A DNA stretch of 64,000 nucleotides from Albula goreensis (GCA_022829145.1 CM040743.1:3715146-3779145); one strand, 5' to 3'. Positions 50,901 through 52,453 are shown, numbered from the stretch's first letter. The notes: a model not told the origin generated them from the sequence alone. Program-made: numbers and translations.

Positions 50901-52453
50901 GTTTCGGCATGCTGACCGCCCCTATCATGGAGCTGCACGACCAGAAGGGGTACTTCCTGCACCACATCATCTTCGCCTGCTGCACGCTCATCTGCATCAT
51001 CTGCATCCTGCTGCTGCCCGAGACCCGGTACCAGCCCCTCCCCGAAACCATCGGCGACGGCGAGGCCTACACCCGCCAGCCACTGCTGCCCCCCAAGAAG
51101 CCGGGCGAGCAGGACCCCCTCCTCACCAAATTAGACCCTGCCGGGGGACAGGAGACCGCTCTGGGGGGAGCGGACAACCCCCCCAGTGCTGGGGACGTGA
51201 ATGCGGCGCCCCCTTGTGATGTGGAGGGTGAGGTGCCGTGCATTGTGATACCGCCCCCCTGCACAATGGATGATGCAGCTGCAGAGCCCATTGCTCTAGA
51301 CACCATAATTCCCACTGCGGCAGACAGTATATCTCTCTGTGCAACGCCCCCTGCTACGGACACCACGGACTCCAAAACTACTGACACAGAGTCCCCCACT
51401 GCTGCAGAAGCATCGCCTCCTGGCATCACTGACTCAGCACTGCCGATCTCTGCAGACTCCATACCTCCCTTTGCTACTGACACACCACCGACCACTGCCA
51501 CAGACCCCATACCACTCAGCAAAGATGCAGAACTTCCCAGAACTACTGACACAGAATCACCAGCAGCTACAGACACAACAAACAGCAAAACTACTGACAC
51601 AGCCTTACCTACCACTCCAGACACTACAAACGGCAAAACTATTGACATAGAATTACCCACCGCTACAGACACCACAAACAGCAAAACAACTGACACAGCC
51701 TTGCCTACCACTCCAGACACTACAAACGGCAAAACTATTGACATGGAATTACCCACCGCTACAGACACCACAAACAGCAAAACTACTGACGTAGAATTAC
51801 CCACCGCTACAGACACCACAAACAGCAAAACTACTGACGTAGAATTACCCACCGCTGCAGACACCACAAACGGCAAAATTACTGACACAGCATTACCTAC
51901 CGCTACAGACACCACAAACGGCAAAATTACTGACACAGCATTACCTACCGCTACAGACATCACAAACGGCAAAACTACTGACACATTATCCACCACTGCT
52001 ACAGACGTAAAACCTCCCAGCATTACTGACGCAGCACCTCATGCTGCTACAGACACAACAGATCCCAGAATTGCTGACGCATCTCCATCCGCCAATACAG
52101 ACGACGCACCTGTCCATGCTACAGACGCTGCACAACCCACCACAGTAGATTCCATTAGCGGCAGCAATGACGGCACAGCCCCTGAGGGGGCTACTGACGC
52201 CACGCCTCCCGCTGCTCCGCCCCTCTGCACTACAGACGCTGTTGCCCCTCCCCCCCCAGACACTGAGCCTACTGCAAACAGCAAGGCCTCCTGCTCCATG
52301 GACGTGAGCCCCACAGGCCCTTCCCCCTCCCCCAGCAGCGTCCCAGCCAATGACGCACCCCCCTCCCCCACAGACTCCGCCTCCCCTACTACGACGGACC
52401 CTGATAGGGCAATCCCAGTCAACGGCACTGCCAGTGGAGTGAGGTCATCCTGA
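5494..52453 (+). CDS. slc22a23: SLC22A23-like orphan transporter, ten exons joined (1021 aa)
   Basis: Joined exons 5494-5922, 26194-26297, 27581-27735, 43675-43843, 44602-44726, 47306-47408, 47640-47875, 48316-48348, 48963-49086 and 50866-52453 total 3066 bp, with every intron GT-AG and all phases agreeing. The product is a 12-TM major facilitator of the SLC22 organic-ion family. It closely matches mammalian SLC22A23 (recalled, about 686 aa) in blocks such as DGSVLPFLGG, LTWIPALFIGFSQFSD, FSTLRFFEGFCLAGI, PGLAALCRDWQVLQA, FPESLRWL, SLTGYGIHHCFARSM, GRRGGLL and LASAGFGMLTAPI. Between TM1 and TM2 lies a Cys-containing extracellular loop with seven N-glycosylation sequons (N76, N88, N92, N98, N101, N112, N122). 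DWFGRRP follows TM2, as in MFS loop 2-3. The mammalian protein has no established substrate, so no transport reaction is assigned. The product is oddly long because exon 10 encodes an extended repeat tail. Confidence 0.95.
8297..8545 (+). repeat. (TG)n(AG)n microsatellite with degenerate TG/CTGT flank
   Basis: A TG run (8297-8330) passes into an AG run (to 8344), followed by about 200 bp of imperfect TGTG, CTGTCTG and GCATG units. The open frames on both strands are repeat artefacts. Confidence 0.9.
9323..9366 (+). repeat. CCAAT-bounded inverted element, copy 1
   Basis: ACCAATCA at 9323-9330 and its exact reverse complement TGATTGGT at 9359-9366 bound a 44-bp segment. The following bases (CAAATCA...GTCACT) resemble those after the copy at 28829. 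Further copies lie at 28829-28875 and 61436-61479. Confidence 0.55.
10062..10117 (+). repeat. (GTT)n microsatellite
   Basis: About 18 GTT units, one mildly interrupted. An imperfect GTT-rich stretch recurs at about 11765-11840. Confidence 0.93.
11215..11420 (+). mobile_element. SINE-like element, family A, copy 1
   Basis: Starts GGGGGCAGCC and has a Pol III box-B-like GGTTCAAGTCC (near 11259) followed by CCTTGAGCAAGGCCCCTAAC. It ends with TCGCTTTGGATAAAAG, CAGCTAAATGAC and a TAATG repeat tail. Other copies are at 19394 (-), 22350 (+, internally deleted) and 28234 (-). Structure and dispersal fit a tRNA-derived teleost SINE; the family name is not assigned. Confidence 0.8.
13262..13308 (+). 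repeat. (AC)n microsatellite
   Basis: CA run with one GACA interruption. The minus-strand Cys/Val-rich open frames here are artefacts. Confidence 0.9.
13489..13718 (-). repeat. 76-bp tandem repeat, reverse array, about 3 copies
   Basis: Units read GTATACTGTCTGAGGAGGTG, GGCATACTGTAACTCC and ATTAATGGTAATAAGG at a 76-bp period. They are the reverse complement of the array at 676-966, and the last unit is diverged. The two arrays lie 12.5 kb apart, on either side of slc22a23 exon 1. Confidence 0.85.
14062..14099 (+). repeat. (AC)n microsatellite
   Basis: Uninterrupted run of about 19 AC units. Confidence 0.95.
15590..16260. other. Unique intron-1 segment, candidate conserved noncoding DNA
   Basis: Non-repetitive, AT-leaning sequence with no coding signal. 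It holds a perfect CArG box (CCAAATAAGG, 15646-15655) and homeobox-type ATTA clusters around GAATTAATTATTCATTAC (about 16128-16145). That mixture is typical of vertebrate enhancers, but conservation was not tested. Confidence 0.25.
16333..16812 (+). repeat. 48-bp minisatellite, about 10 copies
   Basis: Near-identical units contain CACACACTGGAACAGTGCC, TTAACAGGATGCAGAC and TGTGGGGCCCATC at a 48-bp period. Because 48 is a multiple of three and the unit lacks stops, three overlapping frames on both strands stay open across the array (118-159 residues). None has a start context, splice context or domain that would argue for a protein. Confidence 0.93.
16969..17077 (+). repeat. 36-bp tandem repeat, 3 copies
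   Basis: The unit GGGGAGCTGCCCTTTGACCC followed by TATCCCATCAGGCCGT occurs three times, about 160 bp after the 48-bp minisatellite. Confidence 0.85.
17240..18215 (+). repeat. CT-rich / (TG)n / CT-rich simple-repeat block
   Basis: About 340 bp of CT-rich DNA (17240-17580) is followed by a TG run (17639-17829) broken only at a GTTGTG near 17757 and a GTGAGTG near 17813. About 350 bp of CTCTCC-type polypyrimidine (17870-18215) then follows. Open frames of up to 278 residues here are low-complexity artefacts. Confidence 0.93.
19394..19598 (-). mobile_element. SINE-like element, family A, copy 2
   Basis: Reverse orientation: begins with CAGTCATTTAGCTGATGC (tail), then TTGCTCAGGGGCCCAGCAG and GCTTGAACCACCAACC (box B), and ends in a TGCTGCCCC head. 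Confidence 0.78.
19789..19851 (+). repeat. (TG)n microsatellite
   Basis: Uninterrupted run of about 31 TG units. Confidence 0.95.
21778..21959 (+). repeat. Two (AC)n microsatellites
   Basis: AC runs at 21778-21847 and 21922-21959 flank a short spacer that includes CTTTCTCACATAAAGATGC. Confidence 0.93.
22350..22489 (+). mobile_element. SINE-like element, family A, copy 3 (internally deleted)
   Basis: Head GGGGCAGCCTATAGTCTAGT and tail CACTTTGGATAAAAGC...TCAGCTAAATGACTG are kept. The box-B portion and the CTGTTGGGCCC segment are missing, so it is about 65 bp shorter than copy 1. Confidence 0.75.
23709..24590 (+). repeat. 37-bp GC-rich minisatellite, about 23 copies
   Basis: The unit contains TTTAACTCCAGTC, CTGGAGGGCCGCAGTG and TCTGCAGG, period 37 bp, regular at the left and broken by indels toward the right. 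It shares its core with the 41-bp array at 25248-25905 in the opposite orientation. Single diverged copies occur near 27480 (-) and 31195 (+), so the core is probably part of an interspersed repeat. Open frames across the array are artefacts. Confidence 0.93.
25248..25905 (-). repeat. 41-bp GC-rich minisatellite, about 16 copies
   Basis: Plus-strand units read GTAGCCCTGCAGGCACTG, then TGGCCCTCCAGGACC, then AGGGTAGA, period 41 bp. The reverse complement contains CTGGAGGGCC(A/G)CAGTGCCTGCAGG, the core of the array at 23709-24590. Forty-one is not a multiple of three, so the open minus-strand frames of 217-226 residues cycle through all phases of the repeat, which argues against coding. Confidence 0.93.
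26194..26297 (+). CDS. slc22a23: slc22a23 exon 2 (residues 144-178)
   Basis: Bounded by ctccgcag and gtgagtg; 104 bp, entered in phase 0 and ending with two bases of a split Trp codon. Encodes the end of the extracellular loop (WNLVCGSERKVHIAKF) and TM2 (LLVGSIFGYLVLGVLADW). It matches the VHIAKFSLLVG block of SLC22A23. Confidence 0.95.
26298..27580 (+). other. slc22a23 intron 2
   Basis: About 1.3 kb, with a large CA-rich block at 26929-27131 and a single inverted copy of the GGAGGGC minisatellite core near 27480. No exon or RNA gene was recognised. Confidence 0.85.
26929..27131 (+). repeat. CA-rich compound microsatellite
   Basis: About 200 bp of ACAC with interspersed CACC, CTTAC, AAGC, CTCA and CGCA interruptions. 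The His/Thr-rich open frames are artefacts. Confidence 0.93.
27581..27735 (+). CDS. slc22a23: slc22a23 exon 3 (residues 178-230)
   Basis: Bounded by ccctgcag and gtgagtac; 155 bp. It completes the MFS loop motif DWFGRRP and encodes TM3 (VLITSVLFVLVFGLAVAFSV) and TM4 (FFEGFCLAGITLSLYVL). It matches SLC22A23 through NVPMFSTLRFFEGFCLAG. Confidence 0.95.
27913..28140 (+). mobile_element. MITE-like DNA transposon remnant
   Basis: The left end ACAGTTGCAAGAAAAAGT with GTTTGTGAACCCTT is mirrored at the right end by AAGGGTTCACAGAC. Between them are TCTTCATCTGAATCACAA and GTCTTTATTGAACACATTC. This resembles a widespread vertebrate non-autonomous Tc1/mariner-like repeat, recalled by pattern rather than searched. 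No transposase frame remains. Confidence 0.65.
28234..28462 (-). mobile_element. SINE-like element, family A, copy 4
   Basis: Reverse orientation: starts with the tail ACATTACATTACAGTCATTT and AGCTGACGCTTTTATCC. It carries GCTCAAGGGCCCAACAGCAA and the box-B complement GGCTTGAACCGCCAACC, and ends in ACTACAGGCTGTC. It begins about 100 bp after the MITE-like element. Confidence 0.8.
28829..28875 (+). repeat. CCAAT-bounded inverted element, copy 2
   Basis: ACCAATCA at 28829-28836 and TGATTGGT at 28868-28875 bound a 47-bp segment. The following CCAAATCATTGAGTCACT is similar to the sequence after copy 1. Confidence 0.55.
29870..29900 (+). promoter_or_regulatory. Cluster of four AP-1 (TRE) motifs at 8-bp spacing
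   Basis: TGACTCA at 29870, TGAGTCA at 29878, TGACTCA at 29886 and TGACTCA at 29894, each exactly 8 bp from the next. AP-1 (Fos/Jun) binding is established for this heptamer; occupancy here is inferred. It may equally be a chance octamer microsatellite. Confidence 0.4.
31747..31960 (+). repeat. (AG)n microsatellite and purine-rich flank
   Basis: AG run at 31747-31784, then GAGAGA-rich purine sequence to about 31960. Confidence 0.9.
32497..32547 (+). repeat. 7-bp tandem repeat (ATAAATG-like)
   Basis: About seven units of GATAAAT or TTAAATG at a 7-bp period. Confidence 0.8.
32590..33110. other. Unique intron-3 segment with RFX-like and octamer-like motifs
   Basis: Non-repetitive sequence. TTTGCCTTGGCAAC at 32982-32995 is close to the palindromic RFX X-box (GTTGCCATGGCAAC) on the reverse strand. 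An AATTATGCAT POU/homeobox-type stretch lies near 33032-33042. It is a candidate enhancer; conservation was not tested. Confidence 0.25.
33255..33440 (+). mobile_element. Possible LINE ORF2 3'-end remnant
   Basis: The frame reads FGKYYFPQRAVDAWKSLPGR then AVEAETLECSSQGLM. This resembles the post-reverse-transcriptase tail common to jockey/CR1/L2-like LINEs (YFxxRVVxxWNSLPxxVVxA). No reverse transcriptase precedes it within the open part, so at most it is a truncated, degenerate copy. The identification is by motif memory only. Confidence 0.4.
35640..35735 (+). repeat. (TG)n microsatellite, about 48 units
   Basis: Uninterrupted TG run followed by TTTTTTGTGTATG. Confidence 0.96.
36126..36154 (+). 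repeat. (AG)n microsatellite
   Basis: About 14 AG units. A TG-rich degenerate tract follows at 36603-36680. Confidence 0.9.
36700..37220 (+). other. C-poor, strand-asymmetric degenerate repeat
   Basis: About 500 bp strongly depleted of C on the plus strand, built from variants of GGTATAGTGG and GTGTATA. AGGGAGGTATAGAA followed by TGAATG occurs near 36869 and again near 37038, suggesting a decayed tandem duplication of about 170 bp. Long minus-strand frames follow from the bias. Confidence 0.45.
37693..37830 (+). mobile_element. SINE-like element, family B fragment
   Basis: TGGTTTAATGGTTAGGG resembles a tRNA box A and CAGGTTTGTTTCCCAG a decayed box B, followed by GTACCCTTGAGCAAGGTT. It lacks the family A tail. 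A tRNA-derived SINE is likely, a functional tRNA gene is not. Confidence 0.6.
40246..40258 (+). promoter_or_regulatory. T-MARE-like palindrome (AP-1/MAF type)
   Basis: AGCTGAGTCAGCT is a perfect palindrome containing the GCTGAGTCAGC core of the MAF recognition element. A near-palindromic TTCCGTAACGGAA lies about 15 bp upstream. Binding is inferred from motif only. Confidence 0.3.
40406..40690 (+). repeat. AG-rich purine tracts
   Basis: GAGAGA runs near 40407-40428 and 40675-40690 with purine-rich flanks. Confidence 0.85.
40911..41393 (+). repeat. CA-rich compound microsatellite
   Basis: Pure AC runs at 40911-40944 and about 41360-41390, with degenerate ACACA, CATGTA and GCATTTAAGCAT units between, some duplicated. 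No gene. Confidence 0.9.
42690..43670 (+). repeat. Polypyrimidine (CT-rich) tract abutting exon 4
   Basis: About 980 bp almost free of purines on the plus strand, made of CTCCCTCC, TGTCTCC and CCTTAACTCTCT units. A block beginning CAACACCTGTTCTTCC recurs at 43026 and 43341, showing an internal duplication of about 315 bp. It ends in a pure CT run directly before the gcag acceptor of exon 4. The 254-residue frame through it is low-complexity Ser/Leu/Pro and not a gene. Confidence 0.95.
43675..43843 (+). CDS. slc22a23: slc22a23 exon 4 (residues 230-286)
   Basis: Bounded by ctctgcag and gtgagtg; 169 bp. Encodes RIELCLPLWRFRVTMVANF, TM5 (FVVLAGQLLMPGLAAL), the conserved CRDWQVLQA and TM6 (VIICPLVLMLSYIW). 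Mammalian SLC22A23, as I recall it, has ELCPPGKRF where this protein reads ELCLPLWRF, a notable difference next to otherwise identical sequence. Confidence 0.95.
43844..44601 (+). other. slc22a23 intron 4
   Basis: About 0.76 kb. The first 300 bp are a 39-bp tandem repeat that starts right after the donor. The rest is unique AT-rich sequence with a short ACAC run near 44230. Confidence 0.85.
43855..44145 (+). repeat. 39-bp tandem repeat, about 7 copies
   Basis: The unit contains CTAGGGCTCACTACTAGTGC then CCAATACAAGTGTCCTCAC. The period of 39 bp (13 codons) leaves a 99-residue frame open, which is an artefact. It begins about 12 bp inside intron 4. Confidence 0.9.
44602..44726 (+). CDS. slc22a23: slc22a23 exon 5 (residues 286-328)
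   Basis: Bounded by ctgcacag and gtaagaa; 125 bp. Encodes IFPESLRWLLSTQQYCRAKR, containing the SLC22 PESxRWL signature after TM6, and a Lys-rich cytosolic loop (AKKNKVGETDADEVFA). Confidence 0.95.
44727..47305 (+). other. slc22a23 intron 5
   Basis: About 2.6 kb. Contains a SINE-like copy (45441-45662), AG and TG microsatellites (about 46210-46430), an ATT/GAT-rich microsatellite (about 46580-46640) and a small SINE-like fragment near 46770-46830 (-). No exon was recognised. Confidence 0.85.
45441..45662 (+). mobile_element. SINE-like element, family B
   Basis: Box-A-like TAGCACAATGGTCTGGAAGC and box-B-like GCAGGTTTCATTCC are followed by CTCTTGAGCAACG and an end of ACTTTGGATGAGAGCATC with TAAATGC. 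A tRNA-derived teleost SINE is the likely source. Confidence 0.65.
47306..47408 (+). CDS. slc22a23: slc22a23 exon 6 (residues 328-362)
   Basis: Bounded by gtttgcag and gtgagtct; 103 bp. Encodes EIQRETQSKPKKTCIVKMVG and TRTLWKNIVVLCVNS, the end of the cytosolic loop and the start of TM7. Confidence 0.95.
47409..47639 (+). other. slc22a23 intron 6
   Basis: 231 bp. Holds a short TG run near 47463-47485 and a CT-rich stretch before the acceptor ccctccag. Confidence 0.9.
47640..47875 (+). CDS. slc22a23: slc22a23 exon 7 (residues 362-441)
   Basis: Bounded by ccctccag and gtgagtg; 236 bp. Encodes the TM7 remainder with LTGYGIHHCFARSM, a short extracellular loop, TM8 (AGIAVASCMALCPVV), GRRGGLL and TM9 (MIITALASLLQLGLLN). 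The last 25 coding bases and the donor are duplicated downstream in intron 7. Confidence 0.95.
47851..48075 (+). repeat. Tandem duplication of exon 7 end, donor and CA tract
   Basis: CTGCTGCAGCTCGGCCTGCT followed by CAACTgtgagtgtgcagc at 47851 recurs 110 bp later at 47961 (one C-to-A change), and a third diverged copy is at about 48037-48075 (CAACCTTGAGTGAG). Copy 2 keeps an intact donor at 47986; copy 3 has lost its GT donor. Each copy is joined to an ACAC tract. Confidence 0.93.
47876..48315 (+). other. slc22a23 intron 7
   Basis: 440 bp, dominated by ACAC tracts and two further partial copies of the exon 7 3' end. It ends with a gtggactcag acceptor. Confidence 0.9.
48316..48348 (+). CDS. 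slc22a23: slc22a23 exon 8, 33-bp microexon (residues 441-452)
   Basis: Bounded by gactcag and gtacagt. Encodes LGKYSMQLNI, aligning with the GKYSQ segment of SLC22A23 after TM9. It keeps the reading frame between exons 7 and 9. It is too short to be found by open-frame scanning; phase and homology support it. Confidence 0.88.
48349..48962 (+). other. slc22a23 intron 8
   Basis: About 0.6 kb. A reverse-oriented SINE-like fragment lies at about 48517-48656 (GAATAGAACCTGCAACCTC). No exon seen. Confidence 0.85.
48517..48656 (-). mobile_element. SINE-like fragment, reverse orientation
   Basis: GGAATAGAACCTGCAACCTC is the complement of a box-B-like segment, followed by a head complement (CATTGCATTACACTTCTGCC). 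Confidence 0.5.
48963..49086 (+). CDS. slc22a23: slc22a23 exon 9 (residues 452-493)
   Basis: Bounded by gccctccag and gtacgcc; 124 bp. Encodes EQSETLNKKFSIAFSIIGMF and SSHAVSNLSIFFCAEITPTVIR, covering TM10 and the conserved FFCAEITPTVIR. Confidence 0.95.
49087..50865 (+). other. slc22a23 intron 9
   Basis: About 1.8 kb. Two adjacent reverse-oriented SINE-like fragments lie at about 49228-49368 and 49425-49550, and a degenerate TG tract at about 49960-50065. No exon recognised. Confidence 0.85.
49228..49550 (-). mobile_element. Two SINE-like fragments, reverse orientation
   Basis: CCCTTGCTCAAGGACACAAT and AACCTGCAACCTCTGAG mark the first copy; GGTTAAGTACCTTGCTCGC marks the second. These are complements of the TTGAGCAAGG segment seen in the SINE-like families. 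Confidence 0.5.
50866..52453 (+). CDS. slc22a23: slc22a23 exon 10 (residues 493-1021) with extended repeat tail
   Basis: Acceptor tctctgcag, stop TGA at 52451-52453; 1588 bp. The first part encodes TM11 (LGLVLASAGFGMLTAPIMEL), HDQKGYFLHH and TM12 (IIFACCTLICIICILLLPET), then TRQPLLPPKKPGEQDPLL, which matches the end of mammalian SLC22A23. About 435 further residues, rich in Thr, Asp, Ala, Pro and Ser, follow with no membrane segment. Nine 16-residue repeats occupy residues 727-870. By MFS topology the tail should be cytosolic. The reading frame stays open throughout, which argues for a real tail, but no transcript evidence is available. Confidence 0.9.
51566..51997 (+). repeat. 48-bp in-frame coding minisatellite, 9 units
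   Basis: Encodes nine units of the type ATDTTNSKTTDTALPT. Units 1-2 and 3-4 form a duplicated 96-bp pair (NSK-TALPT then NGK-IELPT or MELPT), units 5-6 are identical in protein (VELPT), and units 7-9 are the NGK type. Diverged TTD/ATD units continue on both sides. All length steps are whole 16-codon units. Confidence 0.93.

Follow-up and report, generated by a model that had tools for sequence, protein, structure and literature searches.

A coding minisatellite in the last exon of slc22a23 of Albula goreensis and the probable lengthening of its tail from within

The gene and its last exon

The 64-kb window, i.e. the whole stretch of DNA analysed here, harbors an apparently complete gene of ten exons in Albula goreensis (Table 1). 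Its coding sequence comprises 3066 nt and specifies 1021 amino acids with no internal stop, all nine introns follow the GT-AG rule, and the gene is without visible lesion. As the start we took the first ATG in frame downstream of a stop; a further exon upstream is possible. SLC22A23 is an orphan membrane transporter. The predicted protein matches the Pfam families Sugar_tr (1.8e-27) and MFS_1 (2.1e-13), and the closest solved structure is that of SLC22A17 (9il4, 3.3e-72). The start of its tail contains a stretch EQDPLL, which we take to be similar to the motif [DE]xxxLL. Over its first 35 aligned residues the tail shares 24 identities with that of rat SLC22A23, the sequence of which is printed in PMC11356391; together with the SLC22A17 match, this supports the name slc22a23 proposed in the initial annotation.

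Table 1. Positions of slc22a23 and of the features of its tail within the window
Feature	Position	Strand	Remarks
slc22a23 exons 1-5	5494-5922, 26194-26297, 27581-27735, 43675-43843, 44602-44726	+	
slc22a23 exons 6-9	47306-47408, 47640-47875, 48316-48348, 48963-49086	+	
slc22a23 exon 10 (last)	50866-52453	+	acceptor AG (first base 50866), open frame; TGA 52451-52453
Conserved tail start PETRYQPLPETIGDGEAYTRQPLLPPKKPGEQDPLLT	51017-51127	+	aligned to rat SLC22A23 tail
Possible in-frame exonic intron	51228-52259	+	1032 nt, stop-free; removal would take out the 8-residue lattice
8-residue (24-bp) lattice	51356-52216	+	roughly T-D-T-x-x-P-x-A, acidic at position 2
Nine homogenised 48-bp (16-residue) units	51566-51997	+	units 1-4 form two 96-bp pairs
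C-terminal octapeptide TASGVRSS, apparently retained	52427-52450	+	resembles rat TANGMKTM
ATTAAA, poly(A)-signal-like	52758-52763	+	first AATAAA/ATTAAA hexamer downstream of the stop

The reading frame of exon 10 remains open from its first base to the stop codon and passes through a tail rich in Thr, Pro, Ala and Asp, as had been claimed for the region far beyond the mammal-like segment. None of 20,000 random sequences drawn from a first-order Markov model with matching composition was open over the length of 51104-52450, where the remaining two plus-strand frames contain 12 and 26 stops. The tail measures 478 residues, about seven times the length of that of rat SLC22A23 (68 residues). The inferred product, presumably translated as part of SLC22A23 and cytosolic by family topology, carries a net charge of -49 and a single aromatic residue in 455, and falls on the disorder side of the charge-hydropathy plot; the tail is thus acidic and probably disordered, in agreement with the initial annotation. 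Searches of the tail at E values up to 1 gave no Pfam match and, among solved structures, a sole match at E 0.91, and CK2-type sites are not enriched (25 versus 20.2, P 0.11).

Anatomy of the repeat and of the tail ends

TRF reports a 48-bp array at 51541-51985 (9.3 copies, 86% matches) as well as a 96-bp reading of it. The nine 48-bp units described earlier fit their interval, and a 16-residue period applies to them, but the underlying period is 8 residues (24 bp), the 48-bp units being a re-homogenised higher order. An acidic residue occupies all 34 lattice positions between 51359 and 52148 if one one-codon shift (at 51503/51524) is allowed; this shift, needed left of 51521, was placed using the lattice's own D residues, and with the phase fixed the counts are 2/9 left of the core and 8/9 right of it. 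Outside the core, acidic residues are found at 17/17 lattice positions, followed by Thr at position 1 with 12/17. Beyond 52148 the lattice slips.

Diverged units outside the core had also been proposed, and they are indeed present. In the left flank, matches exceed those of shuffles at lag 8 (P 0.0002) and lag 16 (P 0.0074); in the right flank this holds for lag 16 (P 0.0016) but not for lag 8 alone (P 0.11). No periodicity was found against shuffles in 52271-52450 (P 0.61, 0.26, 0.43). The alternation of NSK and NGK units by duplication of 96-bp pairs applies only to units 1-4 (units 1/3 identical at 45/48 positions, 2/4 at 47/48), whereas units 5/6 (48/48) and 7/8 (47/48) are by their identity 48-bp duplications. 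After merging of overlaps, the window has 11 places with TRF arrays (period at least 20, at least 3 copies): nine lie in introns, one precedes exon 1, and the remaining one is the exon 10 array. The copy number of this exon 10 array may be wrong in the assembly.

At the far end of the tail, the octapeptide reaches a BLOSUM62 score of 19 against its rat counterpart when anchored at the C-terminus (random P 0.00021), a score matched at none of 419 other tail positions. The resemblance comprises eight residues in one compared species with five lengths tried, and P is 7e-4 or better at 9-11 residues and 0.0017 at 12. The earlier statement that the mammalian protein ends soon after the conserved segment was therefore half right, since mammalian C-terminal residues apparently persist at the far end. 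As both the start and the last eight residues resemble rat, the expansion looks internal, with the added sequence lying between two rat-like ends.

Constraint on the repeat and competing explanations

Variants among the nine units comprise 15 nonsynonymous and 8 synonymous changes (0.65 versus 0.69 expected), and clear purifying selection was not seen in the codon-level comparison of the units. Over three lags, pN/pS in the core is never lowest in the true frame, which gives the highest value of the three frames in the right flank and the lowest in the left. The CNGAC motifs stay in the coding frame (left 10/11, core 16/16, right 11/11), supporting the claimed in-frame minisatellite expansion. 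Changes among the units thus look near-neutral; the frame and the acidic position are preserved.

It is quite conceivable, if on balance doubtful, that the minisatellite grew by chance in a disordered tail and is translated but functionless, the acidic column reflecting shared descent. This explanation overlaps with the preferred one and differs in denying a spacer role or residue constraint. It agrees with the near-neutral variant counts and with a minisatellite-prone window of 11 array places; against it stand the preservation of the frame across about 450 codons and the acidic codon, whose G and A are found in 17/17 diverged units compared with an average of 0.63 (commonest base) at the remaining first and second codon positions. 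However, the third base is conserved too (GAC 14, GAT 2, GAA 1 outside the core) and two neighbouring second-codon-position bases occur at 15/17, so that the column does not clearly indicate protein-level selection; the C at the third base may be explicable by codon preference (GAC 10, GAT 2 in the body of the protein).

In-frame splicing of the array, with splice-like sites present, is absent from the readings of the initial annotation. Such an exonic intron (exitron), giving a short tail when spliced and a long one when retained, would make the array a splice-regulated length switch; it is a serious alternative, though an unlikely one. Splice-like sites bracket the array in phase: by weight matrices, donor 51228 scores 9.0 (top 0.48% of the window's GT, exceeding 5/9 slc22a23 donors) and acceptor 52260 scores 10.3 (top 0.38%, exceeding 6/9 acceptors). 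The enclosed length is divisible by three and stop-free, and acceptors 52374 and 52236 would likewise remove 1146 and 1008 nt in frame. In a test picked after the sequence was seen, shuffling the codons of the whole tail 3000 times gave an equally good best in-frame pair (at least 400 nt apart) in 0.23% of cases, and local shuffling did so in 0.5-0.9%; without the frame condition the local P is 0.02, and 23 equally good pairs 400-1400 nt apart on the plus strand of the window indicate that such pairs are not rare in raw sequence. A branch-point-like YNYTRAY heptamer at 52192 places its A 62 nt before the candidate intron end, but since the repeat itself carries YNYTRAY, the tail has 16 such heptamers. 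Passages of PMC4484396 describe exitrons as stop-free portions of coding exons and, for Arabidopsis exitrons of length 3n, an enrichment of disordered regions; by the same passages, published exitrons tend to have weaker splice sites than other introns.

Loss of an ancestral stop, by which a former 3'UTR would now be read, is disfavoured and very improbable: the long stretch beyond the conserved part does lie in the last exon, but the repeat motif stays in phase with the coding frame and a rat-like C-terminus directly precedes the stop of the extended tail. Just as improbable is an assembly artefact, to which near-identical units are prone but which the gradation of identity among units (36 to 48 of 48 positions) and the diverged flanking units do not resemble, or an antisense gene in the minus-strand frame of 51104-52450 (one stop, 311 open codons), as the sense frame continues from a conserved exon and a stop-poor repeat is expected to leave the antisense frame open.

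Probable growth of a coding minisatellite

From the sequence, a short cytosolic slc22a23 tail was probably lengthened from within by a coding minisatellite that may act as a spacer and is otherwise near-neutral. An 8-residue unit, acidic at position 2, would first have spread to about 35 copies that then diverged, and 48-bp and 96-bp duplications would later have re-homogenised the middle of the lattice. Changes would have been retained where they left the C-terminal end and the reading frame intact, and other residue changes largely tolerated. The product would most likely be an extended chain, acidic and disordered, that places about 410 additional residues between the conserved segment next to the membrane and the C-terminal peptide and serves, if at all, as a spacer. 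Among the roles suggested earlier, a spacer follows from the anatomy, whereas scaffold and regulator are not evidenced. We infer growth here rather than loss in mammals, and the SLC22A23 tail looks like an unusually large case of a known type of event, the growth of a protein-coding minisatellite.

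Gene model and open frame of the tail

The gene model of slc22a23 comprises ten exons (3066 nt, 1021 residues) with GT-AG borders in 9/9 introns and an open coding sequence showing no visible lesion. The exons were located by means of conserved SLC22 family motifs, splice junctions, and the reading frame, and there may be an additional exon further upstream. Exon 8 is a micro-exon of 33 bp which was deduced from the frame; its splice sites score poorly (-0.8 for the acceptor, 2.6 for the donor). The transporter part of the predicted protein, here called the body, is of the MFS/SLC22 type, with matches to the Pfam families Sugar_tr (1.8e-27) and MFS_1 (2.1e-13). 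Its nearest solved protein is SLC22A17 (9il4, 3.3e-72); SLC22A6, A12, A5, A3, A2, A11, and A1 are further matches among solved structures in PDB. The alignment to SLC22A17 covers 122-574 of the 579-residue body query and runs about 42 residues beyond the last hydrophobic segment, whereas the solved chain stops at residue 520, adjoining the end of the match (519), and is devoid of a repeat tail. We retain slc22a23 as the probable name because, at the start of the tail, 24 of the first 35 aligned residues are identical to the C-terminal antigen of rat SLC22A23, as given in PMC11356391, compared to 17 of 36 aligned residues for SLC22A17 (counted from the alignment); the assignment is based on these identities at the tail start. 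Zebrafish is described as having a one-to-one slc22a23 orthologue (PMC4982206), and SLC22A23 is stated to have no confirmed substrate (PMC7084758; PMC11356391).

Features of the slc22a23 tail and of other repeats and open frames in the window
Feature	Position	Strand	Remarks
Exon 8	48316-48348		micro-exon
Exon 10	50866-52453	+	codes for the tail; TGA at 52451-52453
Lattice of 8-residue units	51356-52216		acidic residue at position 2
Core, nine homogenised units	51566-51997		48 bp, 16 residues each
TRF array in exon 10	51541-51985		48 bp, 9.3 copies; roughly this stretch is also reported with periods of 96 and 144 bp
Candidate exitron	51228-52259		1032 nt
Antisense open frame	51067-52038	-	323 codons
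Array in intron 1	16338-16816		48-bp period, 10 copies, 94% matches
76-bp array, first	676-965		
76-bp array, second	13485-13713		about 12.5 kb from the first
Large intronic minisatellite	23712-24455		37 bp x 19.9
Large intronic minisatellite	25249-25897		41 bp x 16
Array near exon 4	43863-44120		39 bp, 6.6 copies; starts about 20 bases past the exon 4 donor
ORF with E2F CC-MB match	62506-62889	-	E 0.003; 18.1 bits (curated cut-off 33.9)

The coding frame entering exon 10 is open as far as its TGA. Over 51104-52450 it contains 0 stops, compared to 12 and 26 in the remaining plus frames, and 0/20,000 Markov-1 random sequences with matching composition were open over this range. The last 455 residues consist mainly of Thr (21.5%), Pro (14.7%), Ala (13.4%), and Asp (11.9%). 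The tail has a net charge of -49, a single aromatic among these 455 residues, and an order-promoting fraction of 0.141; in the charge-hydropathy plot it falls by a narrow margin among disordered proteins (0.439 versus a boundary of 0.452). A Pfam search of the tail gave no match at E up to 1, and the sole match at E up to 1 in the solved-structure search had an E of 0.91. Judged by composition only, the tail has the properties of an intrinsically disordered region, i.e. low hydropathy, high net charge, few order-promoting residues, and no domain. The initial annotation had described an exon open past the conserved segment and an acidic, probably disordered tail; the stop counts bear out the former, and the charge, the position in the charge-hydropathy plot, and the Pfam result support the latter. 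On the opposite strand, an open frame is found antisense to the repeat tail, probably as a by-product of the stop-poor repeat.

The repeat lattice and the history of its units

The repetitive part of the tail is built on a lattice with a period of 8 residues (24 bp). Along the acidic residues from 51359 to 52148, 34 units carry Asp (33) or Glu (1) at position 2, a count which allows a one-codon shift at 51503/51524. To the left of this shift the count is partly circular, as the D residues themselves served to position the units. If the shift is disregarded, the phase of the core, i.e. the nine homogenised units, holds at 2/9 positions to the left and 8/9 to the right. Past 52148, D residues follow in steps of 21, 27, 39, and 24 nt, reaching 52259. 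Outside the core, all 17 units share the G and A of the acidic codon, compared to a mean frequency of 0.63 for the commonest base at the remaining first and second codon positions (best 15/17). The acidic residue at position 2 occurs in 17/17 of these units versus 12/17 for Thr at position 1 (Fisher P 0.044). The third base of the acidic codon is C in 14/17, which may be codon preference (GAC 10 and GAT 2 in the body).

Periodicity was also tested in the flanks, i.e. the diverged units on both sides of the core. TD counts were significant (P 0.009 left; 0/20,000 shuffles right). The lag tests were likewise significant, apart from lag 8 in the right flank (P 0.11) and lag 32 in the left one (P 0.09); in 52271-52450 all three lags failed to reach significance, and no 8-, 16-, or 32-residue periodicity was detected there. 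A whole-flank Fourier test of D periodicity outside the core was not significant (P 0.26 left, 0.48 right), which we put down to phase breaks. CNGAC motifs lie in the coding frame in 10/11 cases on the left, 16/16 in the core, and 11/11 on the right, a pattern that elimination of indels disrupting the frame would produce. Taken as tandem units of 3n length (24/48/96 bp) inside a coding exon with the frame kept, the tail repeat is a coding minisatellite.

The units of the core record duplications of two sizes. Units 1-4 arose by a 96-bp duplication, since units 1/3 (45/48 matches) and 2/4 (47/48) agree better than units 1/2 (39/48). Units 5/6 are identical and units 7/8 differ by one base, so that both pairs represent duplications of 48 bp; the greatest divergence is seen in unit 9 (36-39/48). 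The 96-bp pair duplication proposed before therefore holds for units 1/3 and 2/4 but not for units 5/6 and 7/8. Distinct variants relative to the unit consensus comprise 15 nonsynonymous and 8 synonymous changes (0.65 versus 0.69 expected without selection), and when pN/pS is compared among the three frames at three lags each, the true frame never ranks lowest in the core, whereas it ranks highest on the right of the core and lowest on the left. From these counts and this frame comparison, residue changes in the core seem to be nearly unconstrained, and the two flanks give opposite results. The core offers no support for strong purifying selection acting on the units.

TRF arrays of at least three copies with a period of at least 20 occur at 11 places in the window, nine of which are in slc22a23 introns, so that growth of the tail repeat is less surprising. 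The 48-bp-period array in intron 1 has a consensus which, by eye, looks unrelated to the coding one. The consensus units of the two 76-bp arrays look mutually reverse-complementary, and the two large intronic minisatellites have CTGGAGGGCC-type units in apparently opposite orientations. The 39-bp unit resembles, by eye, the donor-flanking sequence of exon 4. Outside these repeats, the minus-strand ORF with a weak E2F CC-MB match is possibly part of a neighbouring gene resembling E2F4/5.

Ends of the tail and a possible in-frame splicing alternative

In rat SLC22A23, the tail from PESR to the C-terminus comprises 68 residues (622-689; PMC11356391), compared to 478 counted from PETR in the window. 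With respect to this rat sequence, the start of the tail is conserved and the C-terminal peptide apparently so, the comparison covering the tail only. The final octapeptide TASGVRSS aligns without gaps to rat TANGMKTM with a BLOSUM62 score of 19 (P 0.00021 among random octamers of tail composition), a score reached at 0/419 other tail positions. At lengths of 9, 10, 11, and 12 the match has P values of 0.00028, 0.00036, 0.00069, and 0.0017, with a tie at 1/411 tail positions at length 12. In a global alignment of the two tails the gapped middle carries no meaning. The most economical explanation is growth of the array within an ancestral short tail, whose stop would still be used; that the change was growth here is inferred from the array, with rat as the sole comparator. 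The earlier statement that the mammalian protein ends soon after this point agrees with the short rat tail, but the C-terminal residues apparently persist at the far end.

Alternatively, the lattice could be removed from the transcript in frame. Exitrons are defined as stop-free internal parts of coding exons (PMC4484396), and the interval bounded by a donor-like site (51228) and an acceptor-like one (52260) shares with them a stop-free coding-exon interior, a length of 3n, GT-AG borders, and disordered content, all read here from the sequence. The candidate donor scores better than 5/9 and the candidate acceptor better than 6/9 of the gene's own splice sites, and an in-frame pair as good had a P of 0.0023 in codon shuffles and 0.0053-0.0087 in local shuffles. 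However, with the frame ignored the local-shuffle P is about 0.02, 23 such pairs with a spacing of 400-1400 nt occur on the plus strand of the window, the scores depend on the weight matrices applied, and the test was devised after the sequence had been looked at. Downstream of 51228, 18 acceptor-like sites score at least 5, and 16 of them share one phase (phase 0), as a consequence of the repeat lattice; several successive sites are spaced 48 nt. It appears very improbable that the strong donor-like site faces this in-phase acceptor ladder as part of a splice-tunable tail, which would have graded lengths and always keep the ancestral C-terminal peptide; if true, repeat growth would add acceptors and tail lengths together. 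The locus is suited for asking whether coding minisatellite arrays can turn into exonic introns.

For an array grown within a short tail, the likely role, if any, is that of a spacer. The family is assigned a topology of 12 helices (PMC7084758). The C-terminus of SLC22 family proteins is cytosolic, and the tail would form an extended acidic chain on this side of the membrane, moving the C-terminal peptide away from the membrane-proximal conserved segment, which contains EQDPLL, by about 410 residues. Both of these separated segments are apparently kept, which points to them as the parts of the tail that matter. The tail furthermore lends itself well to the question of how coding minisatellites pass a frame filter. 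A phosphorylation array found no support, as CK2-type sites are not enriched (25 versus 20.2 in shuffles, P 0.11), and a surface or mucin-like tail was rejected in view of the cytosolic C-terminus of the family and a single NxS/T sequon in 455 residues.

Comparison with known repeat systems

Searches of the conserved part of exon 10 against contigs of metagenome-derived genomes (119 pattern matches) and of the repeat against viral contigs (22 pattern matches) gave 0 confirmed relatives each. Among the few matches listed for literature on SLC22A23, coding minisatellites, the DRD4 VNTR, NCKX1, VNTRs in transporter tails, and exitrons, no title concerned such a tail, which leaves its absence from the literature unproven. 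By description, the rod exchanger NCKX1 (SLC24A1) is likewise a solute carrier with acidic repeats in a cytosolic part, but it is another carrier, and its repeats lie in an internal loop.

The closest kind is the exon 3 VNTR of DRD4, and the tail described here is not a new category. According to PMC3164202, this VNTR consists of 48-bp units in 2 to 11 copies, in which nonsynonymous changes outnumber synonymous ones. By description, both are 48-bp (16-codon) minisatellites encoding part of a membrane protein that faces the cytosol. The DRD4 repeat lies in the third intracellular loop of the dopamine D4 receptor and is shown to be polymorphic, whereas the repeat of slc22a23 lies in the C-terminal tail of a transporter and is represented by one sequence. 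The latter also has a longer reach, with an 8-residue acidic sub-period extending past the nine units, and apparently retained ends.
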